IMG/VR virus record: IMGVR_UViG_3300010885_080864
Span: 1 to 40,014 of that record
DNA length: 40,014 bases
Strand: one strand, 5' to 3'
Origin: a virus
Under the pieces are notes generated by a model. That model was not told the origin of the DNA. It searched no databases and worked only from the letters and a program-made list of their open reading frames with translations. This document shows, piece after piece, positions 4,648 through 31,115 of this stretch. The number at the start of each line of letters is the position of its first letter. The first letter of the stretch is position 1. Both the position numbers and the translations under genes were made by a program.

Positions 4648-5766
4648 TTATAGATTGATTATCTTTAGAGACAACCAATCATCTTCCCAAATAGAAATAA
4701 CATTATATCCTGATTTTTTAAGTAGATTTTCTCTGTTTAAAGTTTTGTTATATAATTCACCAAATGTTTTATTATTTCTTTTATTCATTTCGTTCGCTTC
4801 AAATAATGAGGGATTTCCATGCCAATAATCGCCATTAAATTCGTAAATTGTATTACTTTCGGCAACATACGCATCAACTATATATTTTTTATTATTAATA
4901 ATAATTGTTTGCTGTCTAAATTCTTGTTTAATTTTTAAAAAATCTAGCCATTCATTTTCGGATTTTGATACAAATTTACGCGCGCCACACTTCCTACATC
5001 CACGACCCAGCAAATGAGAATGTGGTGTTTGCCAAAAAATTAGATTGCAATCATTGCATTTTATTTCTATTTTTTTTGCAGAATTAATATAATTTGATTT
5101 ATCATAATTATATTTTTTTTTATGAATATTTACGGCATCAATAATAAATTGAGAGATATTTTTTGTTTTAGATAAATTTACGCAAAATATACAGCCATGC
5201 CCCATAAGGTGATGTCGTGCGGTCTGATTAAAAAAATTATTGCATTTATTACATTTAATTTTTAATTTTCCATTTAATTTTTTAAAATTAATATGAGAAT
5301 AATCATAATTATTTTTATGCTTTTTTATAGCATTTTCTAAAAAATAATTAACATCTAAATGTTTACCATCGCAATGTGGACAACATTTTGTTTTTAAATT
5401 GAATAATGGTAATTGCCAAAATTTATTATTACAAATGTTACATTTTATTAAAATTTTAGTACAAGAATTTATATATTTTGACTCAGTGTAGTCAAATTTA
5501 TCGCGATGTTTTAATTTTAATTTTTTAATAAACTCTTGCGGATCATTTCTTGATTTTACGCCTTTGGCTTTACAAGCGCAAATATTACAGCCATGACCTT
5601 TAAGATGGTCTATAGATCTTTGGTGAAAGATATTTTTGCAAGAATTACATAAAATTTCTATTTTGTTATTGCAATTAACATAAATAGATTTATCGTAATT
5701 GTATTTGTTTGCGTGCTTATGTTTGGCTCTTTTCAAGAATTCTTGTTGCGATAATTTTGATCTCAT
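4648..5766 (-). CDS. Zinc-ribbon-repeat endonuclease with Vsr-like C-terminal domain
   Basis: The first 260 residues hold four repeats of about 55-75 aa, each of the form KHxxKYNYDxSxYxN..KIxIxCxxCxxxFxQ....HLxGxGCxxC, so each carries two CxxC pairs expected to bind zinc. The C-terminal 110 residues contain VDAYV, then YEFNGDYWHGNP, and finish with KKSGYNVISIWEDDW. This is the pattern of the Vsr-like/EDxHD endonucleases found in phage homing enzymes, with acidic residues and histidine as likely catalytic groups. The gene sits alone between two non-paralogous genes with its own upstream spacer, as expected for a free-standing mobile endonuclease. TATAAT lies just upstream of ATG 5766. No intron or intein is visible beside it. 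Confidence 0.85.
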   Translation of the reverse strand: MRSKLSQQEFLKRAKHKHANKYNYDKSIYVNCNNKIEILCNSCKNIFHQRSIDHLKGHGCNICACKAKGVKSRNDPQEFIKKLKLKHRDKFDYTESKYINSCTKILIKCNICNNKFWQLPLFNLKTKCCPHCDGKHLDVNYFLENAIKKHKNNYDYSHINFKKLNGKLKIKCNKCNNFFNQTARHHLMGHGCIFCVNLSKTKNISQFIIDAVNIHKKKYNYDKSNYINSAKKIEIKCNDCNLIFWQTPHSHLLGRGCRKCGARKFVSKSENEWLDFLKIKQEFRQQTIIINNKKYIVDAYVAESNTIYEFNGDYWHGNPSLFEANEMNKRNNKTFGELYNKTLNRENLLKKSGYNVISIWEDDWLSLKIINL

Positions 5767-8773: not shown

Positions 8774-9544
8774 TTAATTATTTTTAATAATTTTCTTTTT
8801 ATCCTTGGTGGCTTGCTCTTGTCTAAATTTTATTTCGTGACGCCTTAGCACCCGGTAAATATAATTTATTCTTACATGAATGGTTTTAACTATATCAGAA
8901 ATTAATGTGCCAGACAAATAAGCATCTATGACTAATTTCTCTTTCTCAATATTCCTTTTAGAAAAAGCTCTTTTTTTAACTATTTCAGGATTTACTTTTC
9001 TTCCTTTGAAAAAATTAGATATTTTTAATTTTGCCGCATCAGAATGATGCTTGCCAATCATTGGATGACCATTTTTTAGATGACGCTCTTTAATTAGTGA
9101 AGAATTATTTTGTTTCCATTCATCTGTATGAGGCTTTCTTTTTACGCCTTTATTAATTTTAGATAACAATTGCCTTGTCTTGTGTGAAACTAATTTGCCT
9201 ATTTGTGATGCCGATATTTTTTTCTTTGTTTCATCAGAATGCCTGCCAGCGCTGCCACCACTTTTGATGTTGTATCCTGTCGCCGAATCTCTGCTACAAT
9301 ACATTTTAATATAAGCTTCTTCAAATAAGTCCGCCTCAGCCTGGTTATCACATTCATCTAAAATTTCATATTCAAAATTTTCTGAACCATATTTCAAAAT
9401 AGCCGAATATAAATAAGTTGAATTATAATAGCCTTTACCTTTGCGCCCCATTCTTTCTTTGCAAGTCATCCAGGTTTGACCGACGTAAATTTTATTATTA
9501 ACTTTGTTAGTGAGCAAATATATTGTGCAAATTTCTTTTTTCAC
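8774..9544 (-). CDS. GIY-YIG homing endonuclease with NUMOD3-type DNA-binding repeats
   Basis: The N-terminus reads IYLLTNKVNNKIYVGQTW, the GIY-YIG nuclease core. YSAILKYGSENFEYEIL and a downstream Glu-containing helix (EADLFEEAYIKMY) complete the domain at about residues 1-95. Several copies of the short NUMOD3 motif follow (HSDETKKKISASQIGK, SHKTRQLLSKINKG, HSDAAKLKISNFFKGRK). A C-terminal helix-turn-helix (ISDIVKTIHVRINYIYRVLR) completes a DNA-binding tail as in I-TevI-like enzymes. The start is a GTG at 9544, with no Shine-Dalgarno site. A GATATA box sits 9 bases before it, so the message may be nearly leaderless. It is a free-standing mobile gene, and no interrupted gene is visible next to it. 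Confidence 0.9.
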   Translation of the reverse strand: MKKEICTIYLLTNKVNNKIYVGQTWMTCKERMGRKGKGYYNSTYLYSAILKYGSENFEYEILDECDNQAEADLFEEAYIKMYCSRDSATGYNIKSGGSAGRHSDETKKKISASQIGKLVSHKTRQLLSKINKGVKRKPHTDEWKQNNSSLIKERHLKNGHPMIGKHHSDAAKLKISNFFKGRKVNPEIVKKRAFSKRNIEKEKLVIDAYLSGTLISDIVKTIHVRINYIYRVLRRHEIKFRQEQATKDKKKIIKNN

Positions 9545-10620: not shown

Positions 10621-11382
10621 TTATATAAGCTCGCTCAAACTATCCGCAGTATTCTCTAATAGATATTCGTCTATGTCTTTGTATCCAGCAGGAATATATA
10701 TGTTTTTTATATTTACTGAATTTTCATATTTACCGTATGCATCAATTATTTTAGATCGACCCTTTTCCCCAGCCTCGTCATTATCTAGCAATATGCATAA
10801 ATTATTAGTATATCTATATATAAGTGAAAATTGATACGCGCTCATATTGCTATTACCAAGCGCGACAATATTTCTTATACCTTTTTCAAAGGCTTTAATA
10901 ACATCAAACTGACCCTCAACAATATAAACATAATTTTTATTTAGAATTTCTTGTTTAGCCTCATATAATCCAAACAAATAATTTCTTTTTTTAAAATCTG
11001 TATTTTTATATTTTGAAATTTTTAACTCATTCCTATCTTTGTCTGATAGAATTGTTCTTCCAACGATACCAATTATGTTGCCATAAGTATCTCTGTAAGG
11101 TAGTATTAATGGATGGTTTTCAAAAAAAGAAAAATGTATTGTGCTATGATTTTTATAATCATCTATATCTTTAGAATATAATAAATTATTTGATTTTAAA
11201 AAATTAATATCTAAAACAGATGATAATCCATTTAATTTATTTCCAGATGGGAAATATCCAAAATTAAAATTATTTATACTAGAATCATCCAGTCTATTAT
11301 TTAAATATGATAAATAATTTTCAGCTTCAGGAAAATTATGCAATAAATATTCGCAAGATGATATTATGTTATCATAACTCAT
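10621..11382 (-). CDS. DNA primase catalytic (TOPRIM) subunit, DnaG-like, no zinc domain
   Basis: The protein matches the RNA polymerase core of DnaG. FGYFPSGNKL and PLILPYRDTYGNIIGIVGR represent the N-terminal subdomain. YIVEGQFDV (Glu156) and CILLDNDEAGEKGR (Asp200, Asp202) form the TOPRIM metal site, and ALGN matches the usual ALGT. It synthesises RNA primers at the fork. At 253 aa it lacks both the N-terminal zinc-binding domain and the C-terminal helicase-binding domain. A separate gene at 30492-31115 encodes a zinc-binding domain, so the primase is split. It overlaps the upstream zinc-ribbon gene as ATGA, which couples it to the DnaJ/RuvC operon. Confidence 0.9.
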   Translation of the reverse strand: MSYDNIISSCEYLLHNFPEAENYLSYLNNRLDDSSINNFNFGYFPSGNKLNGLSSVLDINFLKSNNLLYSKDIDDYKNHSTIHFSFFENHPLILPYRDTYGNIIGIVGRTILSDKDRNELKISKYKNTDFKKRNYLFGLYEAKQEILNKNYVYIVEGQFDVIKAFEKGIRNIVALGNSNMSAYQFSLIYRYTNNLCILLDNDEAGEKGRSKIIDAYGKYENSVNIKNIYIPAGYKDIDEYLLENTADSLSELI

Positions 11383-17579: not shown

Positions 17580-18809
17580 CTAAAATTCTTCGCTATCTTC
17601 GATTAAACCGTCATCTAATAAGTCAGATTCTATATTAGAGAATAAATCAGTACTATTAATTTCTGATTTATTCAGAGATTTTTCTCTTTTCATAGAAACC
17701 TTTCTCGCTTTTAGATCGATTGGCAATTCTGGAGGCGGAATAAAATTATAAAGACCATTTAATATAAGATTATTATCATCCTCATAATTATTCACTGTTG
17801 CAGACATGTGTATGATACAACCTATGTCAAAATTATATTTTTTATTTAAATCTTTAATTCTTTTTTGTACTTCTTCCCATTTGTCAGGAAATATTGTAAT
17901 ATAGCATTGGTTACTATATATATCTTCGATAACGGCTTTAACCATCGCTTTGCCGTAATATTTGCTTTCTTGTTTTTTAACTTTTAATTCAATGAAATTT
18001 TTTATTTCGCCTTTAACTGATTTTACCTTGTCTTTATTATTCATTTTTTTAATTTTTAAAATAGGAGTAGTGTTAGGATCATTAAAAAAATCAGGGTAAA
18101 TATTGTGCTTCTTATAAGTAAAACTTTCTCCCAAATAATGCAGCTCTAAAGAATACGATTCTTTTGGCGACCAATTTTCATTTTCTGTCCAAGGATACTC
18201 AAATATTTCCTTGGTAGCATCATGTTTTTTCATCCATGTTTGAAGTTTTTTTCTGAAATCTTGACAATAATAAAAAATAAGTTTTCTACTAATCCCAAAA
18301 TCATCAAAACAGCCCACGGAAGCCAGAGCCTGTATTGTATTGGCTCGTACTTTTCTGCTATCAACTTTTGCCATAAAATCAAAAAATGAATTAAATGGTC
18401 TTTTAGATATAATATCTTCAATAGCATCATTTGACACAAACTTTAGCGCACTTAAACCGGTTAAAAGTTTATTATTATCAATAAGTTTATAATGAAGATC
18501 AGACTTATTAATATTTGGCGGAAGAATTTTTACCTTGTATTTCTTGATTTCTTTTTTAATCTTTTCAATGTTAGCCGGTGCATCCGGAGTATTTGATTTT
18601 AGTTCTTCAATTAAATTCGCCATAAGAAATTCAATTGGAAAATGCGCTTTTAGATAAGCAGTTTGATAGCTAATCATGGAGTAAAGAATGGAGTGTGAAT
18701 TAGATGTTAACATTCCGTTAGATAAATAATATTGATGATCTGGGTGATCTACCTCTAAATCATATGTTTGTTGCGAACCAATTAATTTAACTGACTTAAT
18801 ATTTGACAT
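17580..18809 (-). CDS. dnaE: DNA polymerase III alpha, C-terminal half, preceded by split-intein C fragment
   Basis: Residues 1-37 are an intein C-terminal fragment ending LTSN. Residue 38 onward (SHSILYSMISYQTAYLKAHF) continues the DnaE sequence exactly where the gene at 18927-21632 leaves off. The 372-residue extein contains the end of the fingers region and tandem helix-hairpin-helix motifs (LKFVSNDAIEDIISKRPF, ANTIQALASVGCFDDFG). An OB-fold region follows, ending in an acidic tail. STDLF near the end could act as a clamp-binding motif. The start ATG 18809 has AGAGG as Shine-Dalgarno inside a small palindrome. The product must be joined to the N-half to give a full polymerase of about 1166 aa. 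Confidence 0.92.
   Translation of the reverse strand: MSNIKSVKLIGSQQTYDLEVDHPDHQYYLSNGMLTSNSHSILYSMISYQTAYLKAHFPIEFLMANLIEELKSNTPDAPANIEKIKKEIKKYKVKILPPNINKSDLHYKLIDNNKLLTGLSALKFVSNDAIEDIISKRPFNSFFDFMAKVDSRKVRANTIQALASVGCFDDFGISRKLIFYYCQDFRKKLQTWMKKHDATKEIFEYPWTENENWSPKESYSLELHYLGESFTYKKHNIYPDFFNDPNTTPILKIKKMNNKDKVKSVKGEIKNFIELKVKKQESKYYGKAMVKAVIEDIYSNQCYITIFPDKWEEVQKRIKDLNKKYNFDIGCIIHMSATVNNYEDDNNLILNGLYNFIPPPELPIDLKARKVSMKREKSLNKSEINSTDLFSNIESDLLDDGLIEDSEEF
18699..18809 (-). other. Split intein, C-terminal fragment (Int-C, 37 aa)
   Basis: The fragment runs from the start codon to Asn37. Block F is visible as TYDLEVDHPDHQYYLSNG and block G as MLTSN before the +1 Ser of the extein. The final Asn cyclises to release the intein. 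The usual penultimate His is Ser here. Splicing would leave GYGFNK joined to SHSILYS, the uninterrupted DnaE sequence. Confidence 0.9.
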
Positions 18810-18815
18810 AATAAA

Positions 18816-18828
18816 CCTCTAGTAGAGG
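18816..18828 (-). promoter_or_regulatory. Palindrome covering the Shine-Dalgarno of the polymerase C-half
   Basis: CCTCTAGTAGAGG is a perfect inverted repeat. On the minus-strand RNA, CCUCU and AGAGG can pair around a 3-base loop, and the AGAGG is the ribosome-binding site of the gene starting at 18809. Pairing would hide it, so translation of the C-half could be controlled here. Confidence 0.45.
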
Positions 18829-18926
18829 CAATATAATTACGCTACTGATTGTTGTACAGCGCATTTATATGCTTCCTCAATTTTATAAAAAACTAATCCT
18901 GCTTTACAAGATAAAGTAACCGCTAC

Positions 18927-21632
18927 CTATGCGGGTTGCTCATTTTTGTTTACTACAATTGATAAATTGTCTCTAAGTATTTGCCACAATGGTAGCATCT
19001 CTGAGTTTTCTATCGTTCTGAACTTATGATCGATTGTGCATTTTACTTTTTCTCCGGTATCTAGTTCAATTTCTACTAGATTGAGAATTCCGTGATCGTG
19101 CTTGTCTTTAACTTTCAAAAAGATATCCTGTTTTGTCTCTTCATCTCTTGAACGAACATAGTCTCCGGGCACAACATCTCCTATTTGTTTGCAATGTAGA
19201 AAATCTCCTTCTGGACTATATATATTAACGTTTTCAAAAACTGACACCGATTTGTTGAAACCATATCCACTGAAATTTGAAATTACCTCATCCCAGATTT
19301 TAGTAGCTATTAATTCGTGAATATTATTCTTTACAGCGCCTTCAATAAATTCTTTTCTCCATTGCTCAACTTTTTTGGATCCCTTTGATCCCTTCTCTTT
19401 TGTTAATTTTCTTAAACGGTCAGCTTCGTGCAAGCTCCATCCGGCAACATCTTGCGCCAAATACATTAGACTTTCTTCATATAGTCCAAAACCATAAGTT
19501 TCACCAAATGCCCTATTCAAAGAGTCATGCATCATGGCTACTTGTTTTTTGCCTTCTTTAGTAACGATAAAATCTTCTCTAATATCTCTGGCGCTAGGGC
19601 GTGCCAGCGAATTGATATGAGAAATGTCTTCAATACTTTTTGGTTTTATTTTTTTACACAAATCAATTGTACCGGCACTTGTGCCCAACTGGAAAACACA
19701 AAAAGTATCACCGGCACTAATTAGATCGTATGTCTTATCATCATATATGGCAAAATCAATGTTTGGTATTTCTTTTCCGGCATGTTTAATAAGCTTATGA
19801 GTTTCATCTATAATATCTAGCGTACTAAGACCCAGAATATCCATTTTAATTAATCCGCTCTCTTCTGCGCGGTCTTTATCATATTCTAGCGCCCATAGAC
19901 CATCTTTATCTTTTCGGATTGGTACTAATCCGGCTAGAGGTCTCTCGCTAATAACAATTCCTCCGGCATGAGTAGACCATGCGCGATATTTTCCATTAAT
20001 ATCTGAGTAGTCTTTTAATGCCGGATATCTTTTAGCATATTCAGAAAACAATGGTACTTTATCTAGTGCTGATGTTATGCTTGTAATTTCTTTAGGCAAA
20101 GAGTCAGCAATTTCTGTACCAATTTTAATTGCATCTTCTTTTGAATTTCCAAACTCACAAGTCCTAGCAATATCACGCGCATAAACTTTTGGCGTAATTG
20201 TCATTACGTTGCTAACGTGGGCTACCCTATCATTGCCATATTTTTGTCGCAAATAATTTTGAACCAATTCTCTGCCTGATGGAGAGAAGTCAAGGTCAAT
20301 ATCGGGGTAAGCTGTTTTTTCTTTATTTTGAAACCTTGCGAAAATCAATCCATACTTAATTGGGTCAGCTTGGTGAATACGCAAAAGATAGGCTACCAAA
20401 GAGCCTCCCACACTGCCTCGACCTGGACCAACAGAAATATTATTACTTCTAGCCCAATGAACATAATCGGCTACAATAAGCATATAGCTTGAAAAGCCGC
20501 GATATTCAATAACATCAAGCTCCTCATCAAGCCTATCCTCATAAACTTTTTTGTCGCTAAAAGTTAATTTTTCAAGTACTAACTTACATTTAAATCTAAG
20601 ATATAATTTATCCTCATCAAGCTTGTATTCATCGATAGTTTTAATAAAATCTTTGTTGGTTTCTTTCCACGCCAGAAATTCCTCATAATCTGATTCTTCT
20701 TTAATTGGAAAGACTGGCAATTCTTTGCCAGATGGATTTGAAAATTTAGGATCTATCCATGCAGGATATTCGCACATATTAGAGAAAAATTCTGTATTGT
20801 CACAGATTTCATCTGATATTTCAGGAAAGTTTCTATTAAAAAATGATTTCATTTCATTTTCATCTTTAAAATAAAAATTTGAATTTTCCGGATCATATTT
20901 TGTTCTAAAATTAGAAGATTTGGGTTGATGCAAACCTATTGCTAATAAAACGTCATGCTTATCTGCATCCTCTTTATTTAGATAAAGAGAATTAGAAGTA
21001 CCTACAACTTTTACATTGAATTCTTTTGATAATTTAATTAATTGATAATTAATTGTTTTTTGATCAATATTATCATTAAATGCAGATGATCTTCTGGTAA
21101 AATTATTTGCCTGAACTTCAAGTGCAAGATTTTCTCCAAAAATATCTTTTAATTTTTGAATTTGATTTTTTGCTTCTTCATAATTTCTACTCATTATGAG
21201 CTGAGAAATTATTCCGGTTCCGCCGGAAGTTAAGCAAATTAGACCCTCGCTGTATTTCTGCAATATATTCCAATCAATAATTGGATAAACTTTTTTAGTA
21301 AAAAGCGCGGAGTTATCAAAGCCTAATTTATTTATTGTTAATAAATTAAAATATCCTTTGGCATTCTTTGCATAAAGGATTATATTCCTGTATCTCTCTG
21401 ACTCTTTATTGGCGGTATTATTTACAAAATTAAACTCACATCCAATTATAAGTTTTACGCCAGTTTCTTTAGAATATTTTAAACAATCCCATGCACTTGC
21501 CATAGTGCCAAGATCACATATACCTATGGCGGTGTGCCCTAGCTCCTTGGCTTTATAAAAAATATCTTTAGGAGAAATTAAAGAATAAAGAATAGAAAAG
21601 TGCGTATAATTATGCAGGCTTACGTAACTCAT
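18927..21632 (-). CDS. dnaE: DNA polymerase III alpha, N-terminal half, followed by split-intein N fragment
   Basis: The N-terminal PHP domain is seen in VSLHNYTHFSILYS and IGICDLGTMAS. The palm has SVGPGRGSVGGSLVAYLL and PDIDLDFSPSGR, which holds catalytic aspartates, with further conserved DnaE blocks in GIVISERPL and MDILGLSTLDII. YGFGLYEESLMYLAQ and EADRLRKLTKEKG are conserved finger-region blocks. The extein ends at residue 794 in NFSGYGFNK. Residues 795-901 are an intein N fragment. The gene has a clear AGGAG before ATG 21632. It is the replicative polymerase, which most phages take from other families (A or B). The first His of the PHP motif is kept, but whether proofreading is active cannot be judged. 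Confidence 0.95.
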   Translation of the reverse strand: MSYVSLHNYTHFSILYSLISPKDIFYKAKELGHTAIGICDLGTMASAWDCLKYSKETGVKLIIGCEFNFVNNTANKESERYRNIILYAKNAKGYFNLLTINKLGFDNSALFTKKVYPIIDWNILQKYSEGLICLTSGGTGIISQLIMSRNYEEAKNQIQKLKDIFGENLALEVQANNFTRRSSAFNDNIDQKTINYQLIKLSKEFNVKVVGTSNSLYLNKEDADKHDVLLAIGLHQPKSSNFRTKYDPENSNFYFKDENEMKSFFNRNFPEISDEICDNTEFFSNMCEYPAWIDPKFSNPSGKELPVFPIKEESDYEEFLAWKETNKDFIKTIDEYKLDEDKLYLRFKCKLVLEKLTFSDKKVYEDRLDEELDVIEYRGFSSYMLIVADYVHWARSNNISVGPGRGSVGGSLVAYLLRIHQADPIKYGLIFARFQNKEKTAYPDIDLDFSPSGRELVQNYLRQKYGNDRVAHVSNVMTITPKVYARDIARTCEFGNSKEDAIKIGTEIADSLPKEITSITSALDKVPLFSEYAKRYPALKDYSDINGKYRAWSTHAGGIVISERPLAGLVPIRKDKDGLWALEYDKDRAEESGLIKMDILGLSTLDIIDETHKLIKHAGKEIPNIDFAIYDDKTYDLISAGDTFCVFQLGTSAGTIDLCKKIKPKSIEDISHINSLARPSARDIREDFIVTKEGKKQVAMMHDSLNRAFGETYGFGLYEESLMYLAQDVAGWSLHEADRLRKLTKEKGSKGSKKVEQWRKEFIEGAVKNNIHELIATKIWDEVISNFSGYGFNKSVSVFENVNIYSPEGDFLHCKQIGDVVPGDYVRSRDEETKQDIFLKVKDKHDHGILNLVEIELDTGEKVKCTIDHKFRTIENSEMLPLWQILRDNLSIVVNKNEQPA
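18930..19250 (-). other. Split intein, N-terminal fragment (Int-N, 107 aa)
   Basis: It starts with Ser1 (SVSVFENVNIYSPEGDF) directly after GYGFNK. Block A continues as HCKQIGDVVPGDYV, and block B is TGEKVKCTIDHKF with the TxxH catalytic motif. It ends at a TAG stop. Residue 1 is Ser rather than the more common Cys, so the first acyl shift would go through an oxygen ester. Its partner is the 37-aa fragment at 18699-18809. Confidence 0.9.
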
Positions 21633-21729: not shown

Positions 21730-22371
21730 TTAATTTGTTATAAAAGTTTTATACTGATTACTAGACATTAAATTATTTGATTTAAATATAAAATCAATAT
21801 TTTTTAATTTTTCTTTCCAAAAATCTTTATTTATTGATTTGATAAGTAATAATTTTTTAATATCTTTATATTTTAGCTTTTTACGCTTATACAACGTGTG
21901 TGCTATAAGCTGCACATCTTCCCAGTATTTATCAAGCTGGGCATGAGTGTCTTTAAATATTTTATTTTTAAGCTCGCGGCGCGCTGCGCCCGCACTAGCC
22001 AATTTATTTCGTGTGATTATATCTGAAATAATTGAAATATCAGACCATGAACCATTTTTTAATGTATTTGGAAATTTGTCTGATCCTGTCATTTTTTTAT
22101 AATAAATTTTTTCGGCGGTCAGCCCGCCATAAAATACAGAAATTTCAGATAATAAAATTTTTTTATGTAGTGCCTCATCCTCTAAATCATAATCAGCTAA
22201 GTTATAATAAGTAAGCCCGCTAACATTAGCGGGCTTAATTATGATCGATGGGACTTGCATATTATTTAATAATGCAGTTATGGCGTGACCACTTTCATGG
22301 TATATCAAAGCAATCATCTCATATTGATGAGACATTTTCTTTATTGTCACAGAATAATTCGCCTGATTCAT
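21730..22371 (-). CDS. Stand-alone FtsH-type M41 metallopeptidase
   Basis: HESGHA at residues 25-30 is the HExxH zinc site, and NGSWSDISIIS (Asp111) sits where FtsH has its third zinc ligand. SVFYGGLTAEKIYY matches the FtsH segment (L.GGR.AEE). The C-terminal helices match the rest of an M41 domain. At 213 aa it has only the peptidase domain, with no AAA ATPase and no membrane helix. In FtsH the ATPase feeds substrates into the protease, so here the partner is missing. It might cleave unfolded or tagged proteins alone, or borrow a host ring. Three short genes lead from trigger factor to it with gaps of 1-14 bases. Confidence 0.85.
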   Translation of the reverse strand: MNQANYSVTIKKMSHQYEMIALIYHESGHAITALLNNMQVPSIIIKPANVSGLTYYNLADYDLEDEALHKKILLSEISVFYGGLTAEKIYYKKMTGSDKFPNTLKNGSWSDISIISDIITRNKLASAGAARRELKNKIFKDTHAQLDKYWEDVQLIAHTLYKRKKLKYKDIKKLLLIKSINKDFWKEKLKNIDFIFKSNNLMSSNQYKTFITN

Positions 22372-22967: not shown

Positions 22968-24215
22968 TCACTCAACAATTGTGCTTGAGTTAATTATAAA
23001 TTGCATTGTGTGCTCATCACGAGCACGATTAATTAATACTTGTAAATAACCACCTGAATTTAAATCTTTTAAAGATTCTTCAACAGATTTTTTAAGGTCT
23101 GCCTTAGACAAATTATTTTTAATAATTTGAACGACCTCTTCGTCGCTTAATTGACAATCAGGCTCCTCTTCTCTTATTTTTTCAAGAATCAAAGATAATT
23201 TAACATTCTTTGCTCCAGCGTCAAGTAGCGACTGTTTATTTGCTTCAGTAAGAGAATTCCAGTCACCCTTATTAGACGAGCAAAGATATTGCGCTTCTTG
23301 CAAAGAAAGCCAAGATGGTACATCTATATTAGAACCCTCCAGAAGAATGCCTGTAATATTTTCTATTTTTTTAACAAGTAAAGAATCTTCATATCTTTTA
23401 GATGCCGCCATATTAATTTTAGATGTCAAATCATCAATATTTTCTGATGCAAATTTTTGAGCCAACTCATCATTAAGTGCGTGAGGAACAGTTTTAGATC
23501 CGGAGTTTAAAGTAACAACAAATCTTACTACCTTGCCTTTTATAATTGATACTGCATTCTCTGGTACAGAGAAATTAAATTCTCTAACTTCACCAAGCTT
23601 CATGCCTATTAGATTATTATCAAATTCTGATAATGATGTCTTGCCTACAAGTATAATATCTCCTTGAGCGCAAGCCTCTTTAATCATAACGTCTCCATCA
23701 AAGCAATCATAATCAATAATAATATTATCTCCTAATTGAACAATATCATCACTAGTAAATTGTTCTGATGTTCCGGCATTTTCCCTAAGTTCCTGCATCA
23801 TTTTTGCAGCAATAATTTCTGGCGTTTCATCAATATGAGGTTTAGGTATTTCAAAACCTTTATATTTTCCTAAATCAAAATTTGGTTTTGTATAAAGTGT
23901 AAATTCGCATTTGAAAGAACCATCAGTAATATTTAAAGAAGTAAACTGCGGTGACACTACTGGCTTAACATTTTTTTGAAATAGAGTCTCATGGAAGCAC
24001 GCCTCTGCCATTGCACGTTTAACTGATTCGCTAATTTGGTTTCTATAATGGAACTTAATAGATTCCAGAGAGGCTTTGTTTTTCCTGTTTCCTGGAACAG
24101 GCGCACGCTTAAAAGCGTCTAGTACCTCTGTTGTCTTGGCATCTAATTCTTCTTTAGAAGAAGAGCATATAACATTAAGCTTACAATATTCTATTTCGTT
24201 TGTTTGAATTTCCAT
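22968..24215 (-). CDS. tig: Trigger factor (ribosome-associated chaperone, PPIase)
   Basis: The N-terminal ribosome-binding domain holds AFKRAPVPGNRKNKASLESI (residues 34-53), matching the signature ..VPGFRKGK.P. here altered to PGNRKNKA. An FKBP-type peptidyl-prolyl isomerase domain follows at about 150-245 (VQLGDNIIIDYDCFDGDVMI, SEFDNNLIGMKLGEVREFNF). A helical chaperone domain forms the rest (DELAQKFASENIDDL). At 415 aa it is close to the bacterial length of about 430. Trigger factor meets nascent chains at the ribosome exit by docking on protein uL23. It has a strong Shine-Dalgarno (AAGGAGAT). Finding it in a phage is unusual. Confidence 0.93.
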   Translation of the reverse strand: MEIQTNEIEYCKLNVICSSSKEELDAKTTEVLDAFKRAPVPGNRKNKASLESIKFHYRNQISESVKRAMAEACFHETLFQKNVKPVVSPQFTSLNITDGSFKCEFTLYTKPNFDLGKYKGFEIPKPHIDETPEIIAAKMMQELRENAGTSEQFTSDDIVQLGDNIIIDYDCFDGDVMIKEACAQGDIILVGKTSLSEFDNNLIGMKLGEVREFNFSVPENAVSIIKGKVVRFVVTLNSGSKTVPHALNDELAQKFASENIDDLTSKINMAASKRYEDSLLVKKIENITGILLEGSNIDVPSWLSLQEAQYLCSSNKGDWNSLTEANKQSLLDAGAKNVKLSLILEKIREEEPDCQLSDEEVVQIIKNNLSKADLKKSVEESLKDLNSGGYLQVLINRARDEHTMQFIINSSTIVE

Positions 24216-29325: not shown

Positions 29326-30504
29326 TTAATCCTTAACTTCATTTTTAAATTCTGAATAAACTTCGGAAGCCAATTCTATAAATATGTTTCTATTTTTTTC
29401 TTCAATAAAAGTATCAGAATATAGTTTAATAGCCGACATTTCTGTGACAGATTTAAATATATCCTGCCCTTCTTTTTTTATAAAATTAATTTTTTTATTT
29501 TCTGAAAAATTAGAAATATTAAATACTCCCTTATCATATAGGCATTTTTCTATTATTTTTTTATCTATCGATAATAGATCTGCCGAAGACAGTGAGACCT
29601 CTAATTTAATTATTGATTTATTAAAATCTTTTATTTCAGATAATTTATCAATTACATAAGCTGTTGTATTTTCCGTATCTTTTGGAACTACAATTGTTAT
29701 TTTCTTTAGGTTTCTTGTTGGTATTTTTTTTGTTAAAAAATGACCGTCATTATATATGATGATATTTTTTTCTTGCTCAGTCTCGCCATAATTAGAAATG
29801 TCCATACTTCCTATATGCGCAATGTGAGGCTTGTCGCACATAACCTGGGGCTTGTGAACATGACCCATCCATACATAGTCATATCCTGCAAACATGTCTA
29901 GCGGGCACATTAATTCATTAGCCATGTCATCTATTTCATCGCCCATAGGTATAGACCCCTCAAGACATAAATGACCAACAACTATTTTTTTATATGTCAA
30001 AGGTATTGATGACAATTCATAATTTATGATATCTCTTAATAATATAATAGCGTCAGAATTATTTTGACAATTAAATGATTTTCTATCTCTGAAAGGAATT
30101 AAAGTAAAAGCTGAATTATTTATAAATAAAGTATCAATGTTTTTATAAACATTAATATTCTCTATCTCTGCTTCAGAAATAATATCCAGTGGAGATGTAT
30201 AAAAATTTCCAGATCTTAAGATATCATGATTACCAATGATAATATGAACTTTAATATTATTTGATTGGCATTTTTTCGCCCAAGAAATAAATAAAGATAT
30301 TAAATGTGGCGCTGGCTTAGGATCCTCAAAAACATCTCCTGTCACTATAATATCAGATACATTTTCATCAATTGCTTGCTCTAAAGTCCAATCTAATAAA
30401 TTGATCTGGTCAACTGTCCTGCTATTTAGTGATGCTCCTATGCCAATCTTTCCCAAAGATTGGGAGGCTCCTAAATGCGGATCGCCAAGAATTAAAATTG
30501 ACAT
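29326..30504 (-). CDS. sbcD: SbcD/Mre11-like nuclease (T4 gp47-like)
   Basis: The metallophosphoesterase motifs appear in order: GDPHLG, GDVFEDP, GNHD, a GHLCLEG segment, and GHVHKP. These bind two metal ions and cut DNA. The C-terminal 120 residues form the capping and SbcC-binding region. At 392 aa it is a normal length. The start overlaps the end of the primase zinc-domain gene by 13 bases, and the stop is two bases from sbcC, so nuclease and ATPase are made from one message. Confidence 0.93.
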   Translation of the reverse strand: MSILILGDPHLGASQSLGKIGIGASLNSRTVDQINLLDWTLEQAIDENVSDIIVTGDVFEDPKPAPHLISLFISWAKKCQSNNIKVHIIIGNHDILRSGNFYTSPLDIISEAEIENINVYKNIDTLFINNSAFTLIPFRDRKSFNCQNNSDAIILLRDIINYELSSIPLTYKKIVVGHLCLEGSIPMGDEIDDMANELMCPLDMFAGYDYVWMGHVHKPQVMCDKPHIAHIGSMDISNYGETEQEKNIIIYNDGHFLTKKIPTRNLKKITIVVPKDTENTTAYVIDKLSEIKDFNKSIIKLEVSLSSADLLSIDKKIIEKCLYDKGVFNISNFSENKKINFIKKEGQDIFKSVTEMSAIKLYSDTFIEEKNRNIFIELASEVYSEFKNEVKD

Positions 30505-31115
30505 AATATTTCGTCTATCCTATCTTTAATTTTTAAGATTGTGCTTTTTAATGCTTTAACATCTAAATCATATTTATTATTTAGTTTATCAAAAACATAA
30601 GTAGTATCTTCTATTTTATCAAGAGCCTCTTTATTATTTTTATAATATATAATTTTTTCATGAATAAAAAAAGAAAAATCAATTAATAATTGATTTTTCT
30701 CTAATTGAAAGTTATTGTTAATATTAACAATGTTTTGTATTTCTTCGGACCCAAATGATTCTATTATTTTGGTCGCTGCTTTTATCCTACCAATGTTTTC
30801 TATGTTTGATACAAAGTCAACTGGCAAGGTGCCTATTTTACATCCAAAACAATAAAATGAATTTGTTTCCGGATAAAAATAAAAAGATGGGCTACTTTCT
30901 CTTCCGCTTTTATGATTTAAAAATGGGCAAACGCATTTTCTATTATCAATATTTATATTATATAAATTGAATATTTTCAATAAATCTATTGAATTGGCTT
31001 CATTTATTAAATTCTTGTTATCTGAGATGCCTGAAGTAATTGATTGAGAATCTCCATCTTCCCACTGTATTTCGCCGTAGCCAGAGTGTCTTTTTCCATT
31101 TGATAGTAAGCACAT
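30492..31115 (-). CDS. DnaG-type zinc-binding domain protein (primase zinc subunit)
   Basis: The segment CPFLNHKSGRESSPSFYFYP, continuing to FYCFGCKIG, is the CHC2 zinc domain of DnaG: Cys63, His68, Cys89 and Cys92 are the expected ligands. The preceding SIDLLKIFNLYNI matches the first helix of the family. No catalytic TOPRIM domain is present; that lies in a separate gene at 10621-11382. In DnaG this domain reads template sequence and starts primers. The 38-residue N-terminal extension contains SGYGEIQWEDGDS, close to the SSB N-terminus YGEISWDDEVS. Only ATG 31115 gives a complete extension. Most of the extension overlaps a 59-aa ORF in another frame. Confidence 0.85.
   Translation of the reverse strand: MCLLSNGKRHSGYGEIQWEDGDSQSITSGISDNKNLINEANSIDLLKIFNLYNINIDNRKCVCPFLNHKSGRESSPSFYFYPETNSFYCFGCKIGTLPVDFVSNIENIGRIKAATKIIESFGSEEIQNIVNINNNFQLEKNQLLIDFSFFIHEKIIYYKNNKEALDKIEDTTYVFDKLNNKYDLDVKALKSTILKIKDRIDEILCQF

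Follow-up and report, generated by a model that had tools for sequence, protein, structure and literature searches.

A predicted naturally split intein at the FNK/SHS site of a phage DNA polymerase III alpha subunit

In the established chemistry of class 1 inteins, an acyl shift (from Ser1 to Ser+1 when both nucleophiles are serines), cyclization of Asn, and ligation yield the spliced protein. Dassa is said to have described, in 2009, "fractured" phage genes for eight enzyme types, with split inteins linked to Vsr-like endonucleases. The replicative polymerase DnaE of cyanobacteria and a phage polymerase are already known to carry split inteins. The phage example, Aes123 PolB1 of Aeromonas phages, is naturally split and cysteine-less (PMC11923092), a term that calls for Ser or Thr at both positions 1 and +1 (PMC13014065), with any further cysteine nonessential. 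Here, we analyzed a 40,014-base virus contig (IMG/VR record IMGVR_UViG_3300010885_080864, positions 1 to 40,014; the window), in which the DNA polymerase III alpha subunit (DnaE) of a large phage is encoded by two genes on the minus strand. Our analysis indicates that these genes very probably carry the halves of a naturally split class 1 intein that would join the two proteins by trans-splicing, the split most likely deriving from an endonuclease-bearing ancestor. The window adds a new member to the known split inteins, with a different site and serine nucleophiles.

Layout of the split gene and the polymerase it would restore

The two genes, dnaE-N and dnaE-C, and their parts (lengths in amino acids, aa, or nucleotides, nt) are arranged as follows, with open reading frame abbreviated as ORF:

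18927 to 21632, minus strand: dnaE-N, an ORF of 901 aa encoding the PHP, palm, and finger of DNA polymerase III alpha and then the intein N fragment (Pfam PHP, DNA_pol3_alpha, and DNA_pol3_finger; TIGR00594, 580 bits)
19251 to 21632, minus strand: N-extein, 794 aa, with catalytic motifs PDIDLD and KMDILG, ending in GYGFNK
18930 to 19250, minus strand: intein N fragment (IntN), 107 aa, SVSVFENV...KCTIDHKFR...NEQPA, with Ser1 and block B CTIDH
18810 to 18926, minus strand: gap of 117 nt separating dnaE-N and dnaE-C
18861 to 18905, minus strand: candidate scrap of an endonuclease C-terminus, KAGLVFYKIEEAYKC, suggestive (best DNA match at 18867 to 18887, 19 of 21 bases shared with the decayed tail in relative L019)
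18815 to 18829, minus strand: short hairpin containing the ribosome-binding AGAGG of dnaE-C
17580 to 18809, minus strand: dnaE-C, an ORF of 409 aa encoding the intein C fragment and then the C-terminal region of DNA polymerase III alpha (Pfam HHH_6; DnaE and intein_Cterm models)
18699 to 18809, minus strand: intein C fragment (IntC), 37 aa, MSNIKSV...NGMLTSN, with penultimate Ser and terminal Asn
17583 to 18698, minus strand: C-extein, 372 aa, starting with SHSILYS, its +1 Ser codon at 18698 to 18696

A preliminary description made from the sequence alone had placed the two ORFs, IntN (19250 to 18930) and IntC (18809 to 18699) at these positions, and its coordinates and fragment lengths proved exact to the base. 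The intein blocks that it named, including TIDH, are present, and splice residues are found in both fragments: Ser1, block B TIDH, the terminal Asn37, and Ser+1, the set used by class 1 inteins. With Ser at both 1 and +1, the window's intein has the nucleophiles of a cysteine-less split intein. Two Cys lie within IntN, one of which, preceding TxxH, is invariant across the phage family.

In the proposed mechanism, IntN and IntC of the two separately translated proteins would meet and fold into a single Hint domain. Ser1 would then attack the bond between Lys and Ser at GYGFNK/S, and transfer of the acyl chain to Ser+1 of the C-extein would be followed by cyclization of the terminal Asn of IntC, with the polymerase parts ligated as ...GYGFNK-SHSILYS... 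in an enzyme of 1166 aa and about 134 kDa. The same junction and product length had been predicted in the preliminary description, and alignment bears them out. When the N-extein (794 aa) and C-extein (372 aa) are joined into a chain of 1166 aa (134 kDa), TIGR00594 matches it in one uninterrupted stretch over residues 3-1053 with 704.7 bits (cutoff 434), compared with 580 and 113 bits for the separate parts. At the junction there is neither gap nor overlap relative to intein-free DnaE from Mycobacterium phage Cane17 and from a cyanobacterium. The insertion lies four residues downstream of the cyanobacterial site, as had been proposed; this was checked against the cyanobacterial locus FAAY/CLSYD...VASN/CFNKSHS.

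The gap between the two genes is longer than most in the window (median 12 nt). Both ORFs share one frame, with three in-frame stops between them (TAG, TAA, and TAG, namely that of dnaE-N and two more). The shared frame would suit joining at the RNA or translation level, through an intron or through read-through of stops into an uninterrupted intein, which we nevertheless consider very improbable: the gaps of relatives differ in length, frame, and content. An intron between the dnaE halves found no Rfam match in the window, and stop recoding was rejected because the gap holds both TAG and TAA, each of which is in normal use in the window. dnaE-C has its own start and its own ribosome-binding site. 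The hairpin around the latter is not seen in the window's closest relative, and promoter-like sites in the 117-nt gap show no excess over chance.

Several observations on the window's intein pieces weigh against their assignment. The curated intein models, applied to the window alone, score near or under their cutoffs and are weak by themselves. Pfam Intein_splicing (PF14890) reaches 20.9 bits (cutoff 35.8) and TIGR01445 reaches 15.4 (cutoff 24.5); TIGR01443, at 15.8 bits, is just over its cutoff of 15.6. The penultimate residue of IntC is Ser instead of the usual His, although Ser is common to the cyanobacterial DnaE inteins. Charge complementarity of the halves, as in the oppositely charged fragments of some split inteins, is not seen (IntN -7, IntC -2).

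Since general models see the pieces so weakly, their identity as an intein is argued from relatives. In relative L004, a related intein of 147 aa is uninterrupted within a single dnaE gene. Its sequence matches DnaE inteins of cyanobacteria whose structures have been solved (7qil, E value 6e-12; Npu 2keq, 8e-10), and its own predicted structure (predicted local distance difference test score, pLDDT, 82) has a Hint fold whose best match in the PDB is the NpuDnaE intein, with a template modeling (TM) score of 0.77. The window's halves align along the length of this intein, with 45% identity for IntN and 68% for IntC. Layout, splice residues, and the restored host protein thus support a naturally split class 1 intein in the window, as predicted from sequence.

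Relatives with the same split and selection on the halves

To place the window in context, relatives were gathered by scanning IMG/VR with two queries, dnaE-C and an alignment of IntC, together with a search of loci with family IntC and IntN profiles. Used as the only query against viral contigs, dnaE-N recovered no relative. The split at FNK/SHS recurs in about 21 other metagenomic virus contigs, the longest of 459 kb. In these relatives, position 1 is mostly Ser, with Cys in L019, L021, and L040 and Thr in L037. All keep TxxH, the terminal Asn, and Ser at +1, and IntC ends in LTSN, with SVSN instead in the most distant of them. No DnaE other than the split one was found in the records searched whole with dnaE-N, including those of 321, 354, 394, and 459 kb.

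Among 50,697 phage records searched with IntN of the window and of L007, none has a close IntN or a split DnaE of this type, and IntN of L007 gave no match. In sequenced phage isolates, the window's IntN has partial, weak matches (Mycobacterium phages, 64% of the query, E value 2e-3) in genes not annotated as polymerase. Unsplit inteins occupy FNK/SHS in Rhodococcus phages Trina, Grayson, Weasels2, and NiceHouse, and also in DnaE of Chloroflexota, Planctomycetota, and other bacteria.

Compared with L017, the nearest relative, the window shows a nonsynonymous divergence (dN) of 0.21 for IntN and 0.11 for IntC, and of 0.28 and 0.39 for the two exteins; synonymous sites are near saturation. Constraint is as strong on the intein halves as on the polymerase, and purifying selection acts on all four segments. 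This bears on whether the locus is simply a broken gene or an assembly error, that is, a once-uninterrupted intein or polymerase that acquired stops and lost function. The window is a metagenomic contig with three in-frame stops between the halves, as such an account would expect. Selection on all four segments, the start and ribosome-binding site that IntC has of its own, and the recurrence of the split in about 21 other contigs with differing gap contents make this account extremely doubtful.

A more serious alternative is that no splicing takes place and that the polymerase is a non-covalent complex of the two proteins, the intein pieces serving as inert tails or as a docking clamp. Such a complex is conceivable, as the catalytic motifs lie within dnaE-N, and it has a reported precedent in a functional, unspliced phage ribonucleotide reductase split by an endonuclease (Friedrich 2007, cited in PMC10448857). 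No relative has lost the residues of the splice chemistry (1, TxxH, Asn, and +1), conservation is higher in IntC than in the C-extein next to it, and the junction is exact to the residue, all of which weigh against this alternative. This main rival is disfavored by the conserved chemistry, and we regard it as improbable.

Trans-splicing is the best reading because the parts, the motifs, the exact register, selection, and conservation across the phage family, all visible in the sequences, point the same way. We infer from them that splicing probably occurs and is needed for the polymerase to work, as the preliminary description had supposed. Its further suggestion, that the split would make assembly of the polymerase depend on both halves being synthesized, is neither favored nor contradicted here: the relatives fit passive endonuclease invasion and loss equally well.

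Endonuclease genes in the gap and the origin of the split

The gaps of relatives offer insight into how the split may have arisen. In 14 relatives (L001, L002, L005, L007, L008, L018, L021, L023, L024, L030, L036-L038, and L041), the halves flank an endonuclease-like reading frame that is intact or nearly so; in L007 it is broken into two ORFs. All but one of these 14 endonucleases belong to a single family with zinc fingers and invariant E, D, H, and D. The best PDB matches of its predicted structure are the Vsr entries 1cw0 and 1vsr (probability 1.00 and 0.99; E values 4e-3 and 1e-2). The gap of L001 holds a different endonuclease, of the phrog_559 type. In L002, L005, L007, L021, L023, L024, L030, L036-L038, and L041, the called endonuclease ORF begins within the IntN coding sequence in another frame, with its ATG near the TxxH codons; the endonuclease and IntN genes may therefore overlap by about 100 nt.

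Decay is seen in other relatives. About the last 60 endonuclease codons remain in the gap of L017 (62.8 bits; 0 of 5000 shuffles), remnants of both ends in that of L006, and a frameshifted tail in that of L019 (0 of 5000 shuffles). No endonuclease remnant was detected in L003 and L040, which have short gaps, nor in L004, whose linker gave no convincing alignment to any part of the endonuclease. In the window, the 117-nt gap contains no endonuclease gene.

We suggest that, most likely, the split goes back to an ancestor of the fractured-gene kind, its halves flanking a free-standing gene for a Vsr-like homing endonuclease, and that the window's lineage would have lost this endonuclease gene, leaving the 117-nt gap. 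The gap may hold its last scrap, although the evidence is weak: the endonuclease protein profile gives no significant match there (139 of 5000 shuffles reach the same score, and a scan of the whole window gives higher chance scores), and the 19 of 21 bases shared with the L019 tail are equalled by 4 of 1500 shuffles and 39 of 1500 random window pieces. Endonuclease loss in the window is argued mainly from the relatives.

The weakness of the window's own remnant would also fit simple breakage with no endonuclease in the gap, followed by entry of endonucleases into some relatives, as would the short gaps of L003 and L040 without a recognizable remnant and the different endonuclease types in L001 and the rest. 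Against this stand three of the window's nearest relatives, which carry an endonuclease gene or remnants, and most of the wider clade, which carries the endonuclease intact. We consider simple breakage rather unlikely as the origin.

A polymerase tree was built on the exteins, with the intein left out. The window, L017, L018, and L019 form one clade (support 98/96), and endonuclease presence changes at least 7 times on well-supported branches. The uninterrupted L004 is sister to L002, which is split with an endonuclease present (100/100). A clade of split rows excluding L004 is rejected on the extein tree (approximately unbiased, AU, test, p 4e-6). On the intein tree, where the unsplit K/SHS inteins of bacteria and Rhodococcus phages form a separate clade, its rejection is less clear (p 0.07). 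Re-fusion of a split intein in L004 is the simplest account, the alternative being several independent splits.

In L025, L026, and L029, a stretch of 3.5-4.7 kb separates the halves and holds other genes, among them those of secretion-like proteins; intervening ORFs of L025 resemble a transposase and a DNA methylase. The states seen in the family thus comprise an intact endonuclease, clear remnants, a bare short gap (as in the window), halves that lie kilobases from each other, and a single uninterrupted intein that falls within the split group.

Some relatives appear to have the polymerase in still more pieces. In G018 (309 kb, the source of L036), polymerase III alpha is apparently encoded by eight genes (G018:C1, about 87816 to 70900; L101, L102, and L036), which tile TIGR00594 in order, with several apparent split inteins and endonuclease-like ORFs between pieces (read by eye and partly tested). 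Six junctions align exactly to intein-free DnaE, one of them falling between the aspartates of the catalytic PDIDTD; no clear intein was recognized at the junction of pieces 4 and 5. In G020 (172 kb), four genes (G020:C1, 155483-133674; L099, L100, and L040) carry three apparent split inteins and one unsplit, likewise read by eye and partly tested. A second, unsplit intein is present in the dnaE palm region of L003 and L007 (GPARG/S.AGS), at the position where G018 and G020 have a split.

Tentatively, and with slightly less than even confidence, we propose that the family records a full cycle at one DnaE site, from an endonuclease-bearing split through decay and loss of the endonuclease (the window) and separation of the halves to re-fusion into a working uninterrupted intein in L004, together with an eight-gene polymerase split within PDIDTD in a distant branch. 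Under this proposal, a junction between the PDIDTD aspartates would mean that the active site exists only after trans-splicing. The origin of naturally split inteins is an open question, for which invasion by free-standing endonucleases has been proposed as a route. As intact, decaying, erased, far-separated, and apparently re-fused states are all seen at one site, each step, and hence the origin of split inteins, becomes testable. This family-wide series of states is of more value than the window itself.

Elsewhere in the window, the polymerase adjoins genes for a trigger factor (22968-24215) and a peptidase M41-like protein (21730-22371). DNA primase is apparently encoded by two genes 19 kb apart, one with the zinc ribbon (30492-31115) and one with the catalytic core and Toprim (10621-11382). 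Profiles of the phage split-DnaE intein family found no intein in either primase gene. Two more homing-endonuclease-like genes lie near the primase core (4648-5766 and 8774-9544; of phrog_559 type, and GIY-YIG with NUMOD3).

Comparison with known split and unsplit inteins

The cyanobacterial split DnaE inteins of Npu and Ssp share with the window's element the host protein, the split into about 100 and 36 aa, and the penultimate Ser-Asn, and they are the nearest solved structures in sequence and fold, by way of L004. They differ in being inserted at Y/CFN with Cys1 and Cys+1, whereas the window has K/SHS, Ser1, and Ser+1, a phage host, and genes 117 nt apart; neither the Tyr/CFNKSH insertion nor the Cys pair that defines the cyanobacterial Y/CFN allele is found in it. 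In one cyanobacterium (L098, L097, and L088; G004:C481), the two split dnaE genes are adjacent, with a gap of about 120 nt encoding VHYWNLYGRGNISKFYDWVYQFPNLGLVRKKKKAEAILGSYRRG. This gap peptide was considered as the tail of a LAGLIDADG endonuclease and set aside, the likeness being by eye, with no Pfam match.

The phage fractured genes resemble the present locus in that a DNA-synthesis gene is broken by a split intein, and in that the window's relatives encode a free-standing endonuclease, with Vsr as the closest match to its predicted fold. In contrast to them, the window has no endonuclease gene between its halves.

The preliminary description had called a trans-spliced phage polymerase unusual. 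It proves less unusual than that, with precedents both in Aes123 PolB1 and in the unsplit occupants of the K/SHS site. Aes123 PolB1 is likewise a naturally split intein with serine nucleophiles in a phage replicative polymerase. However, its host is a B-family polymerase interrupted at another site, and its structure, 9hth, is only distantly similar (TM 0.72, about 20% identity). The unsplit K/SHS inteins of bacteria and Rhodococcus phages share the identical insertion site, FNK/SHS, but are encoded in one gene with Cys1 and a penultimate His; the bacterial ones, at about 190-460 aa, are mostly long enough for an endonuclease domain.

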